Below, one piece after another: positions 984-48,301 of a stretch of 64,000 bases of DNA (its first letter is position 1; each line of letters opens with the position of its first letter). The notes under the pieces were generated by a model that made no database searches, was not told the origin of the DNA, and worked only from the letters and a program-made list of their open reading frames with translations. Origin of the DNA: Woeseiaceae bacterium. GTDB lineage: Bacteria; Pseudomonadota; Gammaproteobacteria; Steroidobacterales; Woeseiaceae. Made by a program: the position numbers and the translations under genes. Location of the stretch: the NCBI GenBank assembly GCA_013042375.1, contig JABDQH010000116.1:1-64000 (forward strand), read 5' to 3'.

Positions 984-2786
984 GTGGCCGCAATCAACGA
1001 CGTCGTCATCAAGATAGCCACGGTGAACGGCACCGGCTCGGCGAGTGCAAACGGCTTGTTGCGCAAGGCGATCTTCCGCATGGGCGTGCCCGTCGTCGGC
1101 AAGAACTACTTCCCTTCGAACATCCAGGGCCTGCCGACGTGGTACGAGATTCGCGTGACCGGCGATGACTACCACTGTCGCTCGGATCGCGTCGACATCA
1201 TGGTGGCGATGAACGCCCAGACCTATGCGCGGGACATGGCCGAGGTCGAGCCCGGTGGCTGCCTGATCTATGATTCGACCTGGCCCCGCAGCAGCCTGCT
1301 GGACCGAGAGGACATCACGATCATCGGCGTGCCGCTGTCGAAAATGTGCAACGAGAACTTCGACGGCGTCCGGGCACGCATCCTGATGAAGAACATCGCC
1401 TATGTCGGCGTGATAGCGGCCCTGGTTGCGGTCGATCTCGACGTCATCAAGGACCTGCTCGAAGAGACCTTCGCCGACAAGGCGCACCTGATCGCCTCGA
1501 ATATGGAGGCGATTCACTTAGGATTCGATTACGCGGCCGCAAAATTCTCGTGCCCGCTGCCGGCGCGTGTCGAGAAGATGGACAAGACCAAAGGCCATAT
1601 CGTCGTCGATGGCAATACAGCCGCCGGCCTTGGCTGCATGTACGCCGGCGCGACGGTCGGCGCCTGGTACCCGATCACGCCGTCGACCTCGCTCATGGAC
1701 GCGTTTCGCAACTTCTGTTCGCGCTACCGAGTCGATCCCGAGACGGGCAAGCGCACCTACTGCATCATCCAGGCCGAGGATGAGCTCGCGGCCATCGGCA
1801 TGGTGCTCGGCGCGAGCTGGAGCGGCGCGCGCTCGTTCACGCCGACGAGTGGACCGGGCATCTCCCTGATGAGCGAGTTCATCGGCTTTGCCTACTACGC
1901 CGAGATCCCGGCCGTCATATTCAACGTGCAGCGCGTGGGCCCGTCGACCGGCATGCCGACGCGCACCCAGCAGTGCGACCTGATTTCCTGTGCCTATGCG
2001 TCGCACGGCGACACGAAGCACGTGTTGCTGTTCCCGGCCGACCCGGCCGAGTGCTTCTACATGTCGCCCGAGGCCTTCGATCTCGCCGAGCGCCTGCAGA
2101 CGCCGGTCATGGTCCTGACCGACCTCGACATCGGCATGAACGACTGGATGGTGCCCGAGCTCGAATGGGATGACGACTACGTTCCCGACCGCGGCAAGGT
2201 GTACACGGCCGAGGATCTCGAGAAGATGGAGAAATTCCACCGCTACCTCGATGTCGACGGTGACGGCATTCCTTACCGGACCCTGCCCGGTGTGCACCCC
2301 AGGGGCGCCTATTTCACGCGCGGGTCGGGCCATTCCAAGTACGGGGGCTACACGGAAGACTCGGACGAATATCAGGAAGTGATCGACCGCCTGCTGGTCA
2401 AGTGGGAGACGGCTCGCACGCTCGTGCCCGAAGCCGAAATCCGCTACTCGAAATTCAACAAGGCGGCCATCCTTACCCTCGGCAGCGGTGACGGCGCCTG
2501 CAAGGAGGCCCTCGACCGGCTCGAGGCACAAAGCGTCGGGCTCAACTATTGCCGTGTCAAGGCATTCCCCTTCACCGACGCCGTACGCGATTTCATCGAC
2601 GCACACGACCTCGTTTATGTCGTCGAACAAAATCGGGACGCGCAGCTGCGCACGCTGCTGATCAATGATATCGAGGCTGACCAGGGCAAACTCGTGCCCT
2701 TGCTGCATTACAACGGCATGCCGATCAATGCGGGCTTTGTCGTCGAGGGTGTGCTCGCCGAAATCAAGAAAGGACGCGCCGCATGA
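984..2786 (+). CDS. korA: 2-oxoacid:ferredoxin oxidoreductase, fused gamma-alpha subunit (KorA type)
   Basis: 600 residues. Residues about 8-185 are the gamma (catalytic-domain) module of the pyruvate/2-oxoglutarate ferredoxin oxidoreductase family, and residues from about 205 are the alpha N-terminal thiamine-binding module, with the typical YPITPSTS at 229-236. This fused gamma-alpha order is the one found in KorA-type two-subunit enzymes. The family oxidises a 2-oxoacid and CoA to acyl-CoA, CO2 and reduced ferredoxin, or the reverse. The start is GTG, with AAGGA 7 bases upstream. The stop overlaps the korB start (ATGA). Substrate (2-oxoglutarate or another 2-oxoacid) is inferred from overall family resemblance only. 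Confidence 0.9.
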   Translation: MAAINDVVIKIATVNGTGSASANGLLRKAIFRMGVPVVGKNYFPSNIQGLPTWYEIRVTGDDYHCRSDRVDIMVAMNAQTYARDMAEVEPGGCLIYDSTWPRSSLLDREDITIIGVPLSKMCNENFDGVRARILMKNIAYVGVIAALVAVDLDVIKDLLEETFADKAHLIASNMEAIHLGFDYAAAKFSCPLPARVEKMDKTKGHIVVDGNTAAGLGCMYAGATVGAWYPITPSTSLMDAFRNFCSRYRVDPETGKRTYCIIQAEDELAAIGMVLGASWSGARSFTPTSGPGISLMSEFIGFAYYAEIPAVIFNVQRVGPSTGMPTRTQQCDLISCAYASHGDTKHVLLFPADPAECFYMSPEAFDLAERLQTPVMVLTDLDIGMNDWMVPELEWDDDYVPDRGKVYTAEDLEKMEKFHRYLDVDGDGIPYRTLPGVHPRGAYFTRGSGHSKYGGYTEDSDEYQEVIDRLLVKWETARTLVPEAEIRYSKFNKAAILTLGSGDGACKEALDRLEAQSVGLNYCRVKAFPFTDAVRDFIDAHDLVYVVEQNRDAQLRTLLINDIEADQGKLVPLLHYNGMPINAGFVVEGVLAEIKKGRAA

Positions 2787-3838
2787 CCTATATTGCCAAG
2801 CCCAGGGTTGCCCACCCGAGCCTGCCGAAAAACGAGCTCGGATTGACGACGCGTGACTACGAGGGCGTCGTTTCAACGCTCTGCGCGGGCTGCGGGCACG
2901 ACTCGGTAACGGCGGCGCTGATCCAGGCCGTGTTCGAGCTCGATATCGAACCGCACATGCTCGCCAAGATGTCGGGCATCGGCTGTTCGTCGAAAACGCC
3001 GGCGTATTTTGCCAGCCAGGCGCATGGCTTTAACTCGGTACATGGGCGCATGCCATCGGTGACGACCGGGGCGAACGCGGCCAACCGGGACATGACCTAC
3101 GTCGGCGTATCGGGTGACGGCGACTCCCTGTCGATCGGCGTTGGCCAGTTCGTTCACGCGATCCGGCGCAATCTCAATGTCTGCTACCTCATCGAGAACA
3201 ACGGCGTCTACGGTCTGACCAAGGGCCAGTTCTCGGCTTCTGCCGACATCGGTTCCAAGCCGAAGAAGGGCCTGCCGAACCAGCAGGAGCCGATCGACCC
3301 GGCGAGCGCGGCGCTCGCACTCGGTGCGACCTATATCGCGCGCAGCTTCTCGGGCGACAAGGAACAGCTCGTGCCGCTGATCAAGGGCGCGATTATGCAT
3401 TCAGGCTTTTCGCTCGTCGACGTCATCAGCCCCTGCGTGACGTTTAACGATCACGAAGGTTCGACCAAGAGCTATGCGCATACGCGCCAGTTCTATCATC
3501 ATGTTGCCAACATCGATTACATCCATCCGTCGGAAGAGATCAAGGCCTCCTACGACGAAGGAGAAGCAATGTCGGTGCACCTGCATGGCGGCGACTCTAT
3601 AGTCTTGCGCAAGATCAGCCGCGAGTACGACCCGACGAGCCGCGCCGAGGCCTTCAAATACCTGCGCGATCGTTTCAACGAGGGCGAAATCACGACGGGT
3701 CTCCTGTACGTGAACGAAGAGCGTGCCGAGATGCACGAACTCATGGGCAACTCCGATACGCCGCTGGCACAGCTGCCTTACGAGGGCCTGCACCCCGGCG
3801 ACGACGAACTGCAGGAGATTCAGCGACGCTACCGCTAG
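2783..3838 (+). CDS. korB: 2-oxoacid:ferredoxin oxidoreductase, beta subunit (KorB type)
   Basis: 351 residues. CAGCGHD near residue 34 and the thiamine diphosphate motif GDGD (111-114) followed by ENNGVYGLTKGQ are diagnostic of the beta subunit. It binds thiamine diphosphate and, in the family, one [4Fe-4S] cluster. It overlaps korA by 4 bases, so the two are translationally coupled. Together with the ferredoxin-containing protein before korA this makes a complete enzyme plus electron-carrier operon. No further gene follows on this strand for 150 bases. Confidence 0.92.
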   Translation: MTYIAKPRVAHPSLPKNELGLTTRDYEGVVSTLCAGCGHDSVTAALIQAVFELDIEPHMLAKMSGIGCSSKTPAYFASQAHGFNSVHGRMPSVTTGANAANRDMTYVGVSGDGDSLSIGVGQFVHAIRRNLNVCYLIENNGVYGLTKGQFSASADIGSKPKKGLPNQQEPIDPASAALALGATYIARSFSGDKEQLVPLIKGAIMHSGFSLVDVISPCVTFNDHEGSTKSYAHTRQFYHHVANIDYIHPSEEIKASYDEGEAMSVHLHGGDSIVLRKISREYDPTSRAEAFKYLRDRFNEGEITTGLLYVNEERAEMHELMGNSDTPLAQLPYEGLHPGDDELQEIQRRYR

Positions 3839-45631: not shown

Positions 45632-45880
45632 ATGATCAGGCGAGCAGTACATTTCACTTACAAGGCGGCGCGGCGCATCGTTATCGGCGTCGTCGGCGCA
45701 ACGGTGCTGATCATTGGCGTCATCATGCTCGTAACGCCCGGCCCGGCGCTCGTGGTCATCCCGGTGGGCCTCGCCATTCTCAGCATCGAGTTTACGTGGG
45801 CGCGGCACTGGCTGCGTCGACTGCGCGAGTCGATCTCGAACAACAGCTTCAACAGCCGGCAAAAAAAAGGCGCCGGATGA
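45632..45880 (+). CDS. PGPGW-type small membrane protein
   Basis: 82 residues, two membrane helices joined near TPGPALVVIP, then a basic amphipathic tail (ARHWLRRLRE). Matches the PGPGW (putative transmembrane) family by the motif and length. Function unknown. Its TGA stop lies in the loop of the terminator that follows. Confidence 0.85.
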   Translation: MIRRAVHFTYKAARRIVIGVVGATVLIIGVIMLVTPGPALVVIPVGLAILSIEFTWARHWLRRLRESISNNSFNSRQKKGAG

Positions 45881-45890
45881 CCGGCGCCTT
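45861..45890 (-). terminator. strong intrinsic terminator with eight U on the minus strand
   Basis: AAGGCGCCGG TCAT CCGGCGCC followed by eight T on the minus strand: a perfect 10-base stem, 4-base loop. It ends the small secreted protein transcript. On the plus strand it lacks a long T run (TTATAGTTT) but can also end the PGPGW gene. Confidence 0.85.
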
Positions 45891-46046
45891 ATAGTTTACG
45901 GCAAGGGGGAATGCCGCCGGACCTTCCTGGTCCGTTTACGCCGGACTCCGCCCGGCGTTGTGTCCGGTGGTGTCGGCCGGGAGTTCAGGGGGGAGAGATT
46001 CCCGACCAAGCGGCCACCGGAAGGGGGTCTGTTGCGGGTACCGCCC
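45891..46046 (-). ncRNA. structured 3' untranslated region, candidate small RNA
   Basis: 156 bases between the stop of the small secreted protein and the terminator, on the minus strand. Stems visible: CGGACC AGGAA GGTCCG; CCGGAC...GTCCGG; CCGGTGG...CCACCGG. Several GGA motifs occur, one in a hairpin loop. The plus-strand ORF at 45911-46183 over this stretch has no supporting features. Whether it is released as an RNA is unknown. Confidence 0.4.
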
Positions 46047-46334
46047 TCAGGGCTGACCCGCTATCAATTGAGATCTGCGGTCTTCCAGGCGAATTTCAAG
46101 CTCCACCCAGTTCTGGCGGGCCAGCGACTGTGCCGCCCGTTGAGCGGCTTCTGCATTCGCCGCGGCCGCGATCTCGAGCGTAGCGTCGGGCACCGTGTGA
46201 ATCGCGACAGCTGTCGCGTTTATTGTTGGGCTTTCCTGAGCGAAAGCGTCCCCGGCGGCCGACGACACGCCGATAAGCACGACCAGCGCCGCGAGAAGCG
46301 CGAGGCGTTCCTCGGTAATCCTGGTTTTCATCAT
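46047..46334 (-). CDS. small secreted protein under a sigma-54 promoter
   Basis: 95 residues from ATG at 46334, with AAAGGA 5 bases upstream. A signal peptide (about 1-33, SAAGDAFAQ) leaves a mature protein of about 62 residues with an alanine-rich helix AEAAQRAAQSLARQ. No cysteine and no known family. It is divergent from the sigma-54 activator gene and has its own near-consensus sigma-54 promoter, so it is the likely target of that activator. Confidence 0.7.
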   Translation of the reverse strand: MMKTRITEERLALLAALVVLIGVSSAAGDAFAQESPTINATAVAIHTVPDATLEIAAAANAEAAQRAAQSLARQNWVELEIRLEDRRSQLIAGQP

Positions 46335-46373
46335 CGTGTCCTTTGTAAAGAAAGTTAAAGCTGCCACAGTAAA

Positions 46374-46390
46374 TGCACAACTCGTGCCAA
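46374..46390 (-). promoter_or_regulatory. sigma-54 (-24/-12) promoter
   Basis: TTGGCACGAGTTGTGCA on the minus strand. Consensus YTGGCACG-N4-TTGCW with one mismatch; GG and GC are exactly 10 bases apart. Expected start near 46363, giving a leader of about 29 nt before the ATG at 46334. Confidence 0.8.
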
Positions 46391-46437
46391 CTTGACAAAT
46401 TCATAAGAATCAACGGGTTGTGCAATATCAGGCGATA

Positions 46438-46489
46438 ACGGAAATCCGTGAATAACGAATTATCGTAGGCGGAATTACGAAATTTCGTA
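46438..46489. promoter_or_regulatory. cluster of three palindromes, candidate activator sites
   Basis: ACGGAAATCCGT (46438-46449), an imperfect ATAACGAATTATCGT (46452-46466) and the perfect TACGAAATTTCGTA (46476-46489). They lie 50-115 bases upstream of the sigma-54 promoter and just before the activator's own start. Two share the ACGAA/TTCGT core. Confidence 0.6.
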
Positions 46490-46501
46490 TATAGTCCGCC
46501 G
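46490..46501 (+). promoter_or_regulatory. -10 element implying a leaderless mRNA for the activator
   Basis: TATAGT at 46490-46495, then CCGCCG and ATG at 46502. A start 7 bases after the -10 would be the A of ATG. No Shine-Dalgarno is present. Confidence 0.4.
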
Positions 46502-48301
46502 ATGATTACGCAGCAAGACTATGAATGGCTGTTCCGGCGCCTGCCGGTGATGTCGACCCTGATCGCGGCGGACGGCGCCTGCCTCGACGTCAACGACACG
46601 ATGCTCGAGCGGCTGGGCTATACGCGCGAGGACATGGTCGGGCACCGGCCCGAGGAGTTCATGACGCCCGAGTCGGCGGCGCGCGTGACGAGCGAGCTGC
46701 GCCCGGCGCTGCGGCGTCGCGGCAAACTGGAGGACAAGTACATCAGCTTCGTCACGGCCGGTGGCGACGTCGTCGACTGCATCACCAATGCGCTCGTCGA
46801 GTACGATCGCTCGGGCGAGTTCCTGCGGACCGTGGGCATGTACATGGAGGTGTCGGACCAGGCGCGTGCCAACTTCAAGTATCGCACTCTGTATCGCTCG
46901 ACCCCGGCCATGCTGCATACCGTCGACGGTGACGGCCTGCTCGTTACCGTGACCGATCACTGGCTGGCCAAGCTCGGGTACCGACGCAAGGACGTGCTCG
47001 GCCGGCCGGTTACGGATTTCATGAGCGAGGCCGACCAGAAGAAGTACGCCGACGGACGTCTCCAGGAACTGATCGCCGCGGGCGATTTCAACAACGTCGA
47101 GCGCCAGATGGTGCGCAAGGATGGCACAACGATCGACCTCGTCATGTCCGCTATCGCAAACCGGGACGAATCCGGCGAGGTCGACCGCATGCTGGTCGCA
47201 TCCAAGGATGTGACGGAGCGCAATCGCGCGGAGCGCGAGTTACGCCGCGCGCTCGCAGAGAACGCGAAGTTGCGCAAAGAACTCGAACGCGAACGTGACT
47301 ACCTGCGCGAAGAAGTCAACGTGGCGCTCAACTTCGGGCCAATTGTCGGCACTAGCACGGCGCTCAAGCGAATGCTCAAGCGTGTCGAGGCCGTGGCCGA
47401 GACGCCTGCAAGCGTCCTGCTGCTCGGCGAATCCGGCGTGGGCAAGGAACTCGTGGCGCGCGCCATCCACGCGCGCAGCCCGCGGGCCGATGGACCGCTG
47501 GTCAAGGTGAACTGCGCCTCGATACCCAAGGAGTTGTTCGAGAGCGAGTTCTTTGGACACGTCAAGGGCGCCTTCACCGGCGCGCACCGGGATCGCGTGG
47601 GGCGGTTCCAGCTGGCCGACGGCGGCACGATCTTCCTCGACGAGGTCGGGGAGATCCCGATGGAATTACAGGGAAAGCTGCTGCGTGTCCTGCAGGAAAG
47701 CGAGTTCGAGCGCGTCGGTGATGACGTGACCCGCTACGTCGACGTGCGCATCGTCGCGGCAACCAACCGCAATCTCGAAAAGCTCATGGTCGAGGGCAAT
47801 TTCCGGGAGGACCTGTTCTACCGACTCAGCGTGTTCCCGATCGACGTTCCGCCATTGCGGCAACGCGGCGGGGACATCGTCCAGTTGGCGCAGCACTTCC
47901 TCGAGCAGACCTGCAAGGACTTCGGCCGCGAGCCGATGACGCTGACCCGGTCGCAGGCCGCGGATCTCAAGGCCTACGACTGGCCGGGTAACGTACGCGA
48001 ACTGAAGAACGTCATCGAACGCGCCGTGATCCTGTCGCCTGGCCAGGTGCTGCGCCTGGACCTGTCGATGCCGGGCGCACGGCCCGAACCGGTGATAGTC
48101 GCGTCATCCGAGCCCGTGCGGACTGACATACTGACGGACAATGAGATGCGCGCATTCCAAAAAGGCAATATTGTAAAAGCGCTCGAGCGAGCCGCGTGGA
48201 AAGTCTCCGGCAAGGGGGGCGCGGCCGAGTTGCTCGGAGTCCGGCCGACGACGCTGGCAGACCGCATCAGGACCCACGGGATCAAGCGACCGACACGATG
48301 A
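46502..48301 (+). CDS. PAS-PAS sigma-54-dependent transcriptional activator
   Basis: 599 residues. Two PAS domains (about 8-120 and 125-245), a short coiled coil (about 246-275), a sigma-54 AAA+ domain (about 280-515) and a Fis-type HTH at the end. Walker [15 protein letters not shown] (sigma-54 contact), Walker [12 protein letters not shown] and the arginine finger region are all intact. The PAS domains probably sense a small molecule or redox signal. It is divergent from a sigma-54-promoter gene and coupled (ATGA) to dacB. No receiver domain, so not a standard two-component regulator. Confidence 0.93.

Follow-up and report, generated by a model that had tools for sequence, protein, structure and literature searches.

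A putative enhancer and neighbouring sigma-54 activator for a transcript joining a small exported protein to a predicted C-rich-loop RNA in Woeseiaceae

What binds three clustered palindromes that lie between the gene for a sigma-54 activator (bEBP) and an opposing sigma-54 promoter, and what would be switched on from them? The question is raised by a 64,000-nucleotide stretch of a Woeseiaceae genome (hereafter the window), in which three candidate UAS sites, with no strand assigned, are found within 52 bp. Site 1 (ACGGAAATCCGT, 46438–46449) and site 2 (ACGAATTATCGT, 46455–46466) are imperfect palindromes with mismatched centres, while site 3 (TACGAAATTTCGTA, 46476–46489) is a perfect 14-mer palindrome. 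All three palindromes of the original prediction are thus present, but the core that they share is ACGRA rather than ACGAA throughout, with ACGGA in site 1 and ACGAA in sites 2 and 3. The pattern ACGRWWWWYCGT has three matches in the 64-kb window, all of them within these 52 bp, whereas 100 shuffled windows averaged 0.15 matches and none reached three. Genome-wide (2.76 Mb), it occurs in six places, three of them at this locus. The remaining three single matches were considered as further targets and rejected, as all lie within ORFs, and no second tandem pair of ACGRWWWWYCGT-type sites (3–12 bp apart) was found elsewhere in the genome. A literature search on the letters of the palindromes returned no paper.

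The activator gene (46502–48301, plus strand) encodes a 599-residue protein with a PAS-PAS-AAA+ (GAFTGA)-Fis-type HTH architecture. Its AAA+ domain was recognized by Pfam with E = 9e-71 and contains GAFTGA; the C-terminal HTH_8 domain (E = 0.0006) narrowly misses Pfam's cut-off. The AAA+ domain with GAFTGA and the C-terminal Fis-type HTH place the protein among the bEBPs. We rejected the possibility that it is a NorR orthologue, since it scored 361.9 bits against a curated cut-off of 476 and the match was confined to residues 252–516, the AAA+ part.

On the minus strand, a −24/−12 promoter (TTGGCACGAGTTGTGCA, 46374–46390) is the sole match in the window to the sigma-54 consensus with a single mismatch, and is kept in all orthologues. 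The genome also has rpoN. Relative to a transcription start near 46363, as inferred from the −24/−12 match, the sites are centred at about −80, −97 and −120, in agreement with the distance expected of sigma-54 enhancers, here taken as a conserved UAS ≈80–150 bp upstream. The IHF consensus is WATCAANNNNTTR, and an IHF-like site that fits it, by sequence match only, is found at 46408–46420 (AATCAACGGGTTG, no strand assigned). An 8-bp inverted repeat, TGCACAAC..GTTGTGCA, lies within 46374–46424 and spans the −12 region and the IHF-like site; it is absent from the orthologues and apparently specific to this genome, and was set aside. The palindromes had been proposed as enhancer sites for the sigma-54 activator. 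Comparison supports this at the adjacent promoter; the sites are local and are not shared with the other sigma-54 genes of this genome.

The layout was compared with that beside the activator's orthologues in other records. Every one of the 42 keeps all three sites, so that the observation named in advance as refuting, absence of the palindromes from orthologous regions, was not made. The spacings between the sites are nearly fixed, at 16–19 and 22–24 bp, and the distance from the −24 element to the centre of site 1 varies only from 52 to 56 bp. Sites 1 and 3 never vary in the CG dinucleotides of either half-site (for site 1, in 43 of 43 alignment rows), and site 2 scarcely varies there. All 42 orthologues also keep the opposing sigma-54 promoter, TGGCACGAGTTGTGCA, and most have an IHF-like site resembling AAACAANNNNTTA between the sites and the promoter. 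Comparison thus establishes the sites, their geometry and the promoter as conserved sequence features. Genomes of the same genus nearly always have the tandem site at a single locus. The full three-site pattern occurred in four of 369 genomes of a class sample (reversed control, none); two of these four belong to other families and have a different divergent gene.

Activators outside the orthologue set, in Bradyrhizobium, L114 and L116, have the same array and spacing beside a different divergent gene, which argues that the site belongs to the activator. This divergent gene we take, by eye, to encode a putative substrate-binding protein of the NrtA/CmpA kind. Three-site ACGR..YCGT arrays were seen in L115 and L118 (2449–2498), L114 and L116 (2361–2411), and L189 and L190; the divergent gene in these is likewise a putative NrtA/CmpA-like binding protein, except in L190, where it resembles, by eye, a putative formate/nitrite transporter. 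The signal of the activator family may concern such anions. The site type also covaries with the recognition helix: activators with xPTTLxDR have ACGR..YCGT sites, and those with KPSTLxYR have CACA..TGTG arrays, the latter in the more distant relatives L097, L099, L100–L103 and L107. One position of the helix is Tyr in the CACA type and Asp in the ACG type (Ser in Bradyrhizobium and L114), and this Asp/Tyr position is a possible specificity code of the family. The arrays of the relatives and the helix-linked site type together tie the site to the activator. The palindromes might instead bind another regulator, such as a dimeric repressor of the activator gene, given that many dimeric HTH proteins could bind such palindromes and that site 3 touches a −10. 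We consider this very improbable: the array stays with the activator gene in lineages whose divergent genes differ, its half-site changes along with the recognition helix of the activator, and its distance and three-site layout fit a bEBP enhancer. The three palindromes are thus very probably docking sites of the neighbouring activator, and comparison supports the enhancer reading through the sites in 42/42 orthologues, the conserved opposing promoter, the usual IHF-like site and the helix-tracking site type.

The same array may also act on the activator gene itself. As predicted, a palindrome touches the activator's −10: site 3 directly abuts TATAGT (46490–46495, plus strand), the likely −10 of the gene. 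Scanning the region for the sigma-70 consensus gave no match, and no −35. The TATA after site 3 is kept in the orthologues, and the gap from the −10 to the ATG is 6 bp here and in most of them, so the activator mRNA is probably leaderless. Because site 3 abuts this conserved −10, autoregulation is plausible and would proceed by repression through site 3.

Downstream of the sigma-54 promoter, an ORF (46047–46334, minus strand) encodes a small protein of 95 residues with a signal peptide, recognized by eye, and no match in Pfam or NCBIfam. It is retained in the genomes of most orthologues, and a dN/dS of 0.2–0.6 indicates a coding sequence under purifying selection. The exported protein evolves fast, and the ORF is reduced to about 30–50 codons in several lineages. 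Behind the ORF lies a structured RNA element (45895–46031, minus strand), recognized by covariation, a predicted fold and C-rich segments, and after it an intrinsic terminator, GGCGCCGGTCATCCGGCGCC and then TTTTTTTT (45861–45888, minus strand). The C-rich segments, on the same strand, are at 46023–46027, 45988–45993 and 45905–45909, the latter two in hairpin loops. In all orthologues, the region after the promoter was read, and the order is a variable ORF, then hairpins with C-rich loops, then the intrinsic terminator. The RNA has a promoter and a terminator of its own, although the ORF uses the same promoter everywhere but in L072 and L075. In these two distant lineages, no ORF could be recognized, and the promoter, C-rich hairpins and terminator all lie within about 200 nt.

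The consensus fold and a covariance model, R1, were derived from an alignment of 20 sequences (A1) that was not model-fitted to structure. In A1, pairing holds in 86.5% of cells, with a covariation score of 0.357, compared to 0.177 for shuffled and 0.06–0.12 for slid alignments. Among 36 distinct model-aligned sequences, an alignment biased towards structure by construction, 89.9% of cells pair, double changes occur in 18 of 24 pairs, and the score is 0.362, compared to 0.151 shuffled and 0.04–0.10 slid. The folding z-score of the window RNA is −5.6. In the helices, G-U pairs are far commoner than A-C cells, an excess that speaks for the minus strand as the RNA strand. The 33 transcripts contain 57 runs of at least five C, where dinucleotide shuffles have 25 ± 4. 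In the predicted fold, 94% of the bases in these runs are unpaired, compared to 44% in shuffles. The C-rich loop sequences persist while the stems change by compensation. By these comparisons, the fold and the C-rich loops are conserved sequence features as well, and the element shows one of the features looked for in a C-rich-loop regulatory sRNA, C-rich motifs left single-stranded in the loops of a fold that is itself conserved.

It remains to consider whether the folded part does anything of its own. The enhancer could drive an ordinary mRNA for the small exported protein, with a 3′ part that serves as a stabilizing 3′ UTR and terminator and has no role in trans. The retention of a selected ORF in most orthologues, with the RNA directly behind it, would fit such an mRNA, and since most genomes keep the ORF, the protein may be the main product. 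We consider this unlikely, since the C-rich loops outlast changes in their stems, the C runs are twice as numerous as in shuffles, the ORF shrinks in several lineages, and L072 and L075 keep promoter, C-rich hairpins and terminator with no recognizable ORF. Quite improbable, in our view, is that the C-rich 3′ part does not act by base pairing but loads Rho or serves as a sponge for a protein (e.g., CsrA/RsmA). C-rich segments can load Rho, and one hairpin has an AGGAA loop that resembles a CsrA/RsmA site in sequence; however, Rho sites are unstructured, whereas most of the C runs fall in the loops of hairpins ahead of a strong intrinsic terminator, and the AGGA loop is not constant, being GTAA or GAAA in several orthologues. 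The conserved output of the promoter appears to comprise both the small exported protein and a structured C-rich-loop RNA.

No match to a catalogued RNA family was found. A scan against Rfam 15 (4227 families, with sX13 covered if it is among them) gave no match at curated thresholds; the best sub-threshold matches were ncS54 (23.8 vs 43 bits) and suhB (21.8 vs 41 bits), and assignment to such a family was rejected. The scan of eight orthologous loci likewise gave no relevant match. The genome has hfq. The mRNA-target pattern GGGGGAGA shortly before an ATG had three matches, compared to three in the control, and was dropped for want of enrichment.

R1 matched 34 of 37 same-genus genomes, some of which had supplied its training sequences, and in nearly all of them the RNA lies beside the tandem sites, so that its linkage to them is a matter of comparison as well. 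Each matched genome has the RNA in one place, except for one genome with two. The second copy (G023 C108:7-136, L171) lies at the start of a small contig and could reflect contamination or duplication during assembly. Most Woeseiaceae genomes encountered were metagenome-assembled, and the nearest relatives of the activator indicate that the genome of the window is a Woeseiaceae genome of this type too. R1 found no match in 23 genomes from other families and did not recognize the distant members L066–L078, so their RNAs, which have in common only C-rich hairpins and a terminator, are claimed only as analogous C-rich hairpins. At the level of the order, L122–L124 have the same anatomy with a diverged RNA. 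A possible remote member, L079 (about 2450–2870, minus strand), has an activator 47% identical, degenerate sites, a sigma-54 promoter and a small exported ORF, with two hairpin-like CUUCCCCCU/CUCCCCCU segments before a terminator. A literature search on Woeseiaceae with small RNA or sigma-54 found no paper naming the family.

Taken together, we suggest, with a probability of about two in three, that the palindromes are the UAS of the adjacent bEBP and drive a sigma-54 transcript for a small exported protein and an mRNA-pairing C-rich-loop RNA, with site 3 limiting the bEBP. In the proposed mechanism, the PAS domains of the bEBP would sense a signal, and the protein would assemble its AAA+ ring on the three sites. 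Bending of the DNA by IHF would then allow the ring to reach sigma-54 RNA polymerase at the divergent −24/−12 promoter. The resulting transcript of ≈500 nt would carry the small exported protein, then the structured RNA with its three C-rich single-stranded segments, and the intrinsic terminator; the RNA might be processed from it. The C-rich loops would most likely act by pairing with mRNAs at G-rich translation-initiation regions, as for sX13, and site 3, when occupied, would also limit transcription of the bEBP gene. More tentatively, this could be a new family of bifunctional transcripts, joining a small exported protein to a C-rich-loop trans-acting RNA, with a PAS-type sigma-54 activator dedicated to it. 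The family would be conserved throughout Woeseiaceae, and more loosely in other gammaproteobacterial lineages, with the RNA as its indispensable part. If so, Woeseiaceae would gain a regulatory RNA with a defined switch and the activator family a DNA code in which Asp in the recognition helix goes with ACGR..YCGT and Tyr with CACA..TGTG, and the locus would be a case of an RNA that has outlived the ORF of its transcript.

Parts of this arrangement have counterparts in known systems. In Pseudomonas, the bEBP CbrB activates the sigma-54-dependent small RNA CrcZ, which acts on Hfq/Crc by CA-rich motifs, whereas the transcript described here has C-rich hairpin loops and a small ORF. In the E. coli norR-norVW intergenic region, three NorR enhancer sites scaffold the oligomer (PMC2941729). 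As there, the activator gene is divergent from its target, with three enhancer sites and a sigma-54 promoter (PMC2941729), but the input domains are PAS-PAS rather than GAF, the site sequence differs, and the output is a small-protein and RNA transcript rather than norVW. In Vibrio fischeri, the bEBPs LuxO and SypG, with sigma-54, drive the regulatory RNA Qrr1 via palindromic UAS sites (PMC10162802). The promoter logic is alike, with a bEBP and sigma-54, palindromic UAS and an RNA output, here predicted (PMC10162802); the UAS and the RNA differ, Qrr1 has two sites compared to three here, and the RNA here is preceded by an ORF, whereas none is described before Qrr1. In kind, the RNA resembles Xanthomonas sX13, which is strongly structured with several C-rich loops and represses mRNAs with GGGG motifs (PMC3771888). 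The present RNA is likewise predicted to be strongly structured with several C-rich loops, but it has no Rfam match, its C runs are longer, it is placed under a sigma-54 promoter, and in most genomes it is joined to a protein-coding ORF.
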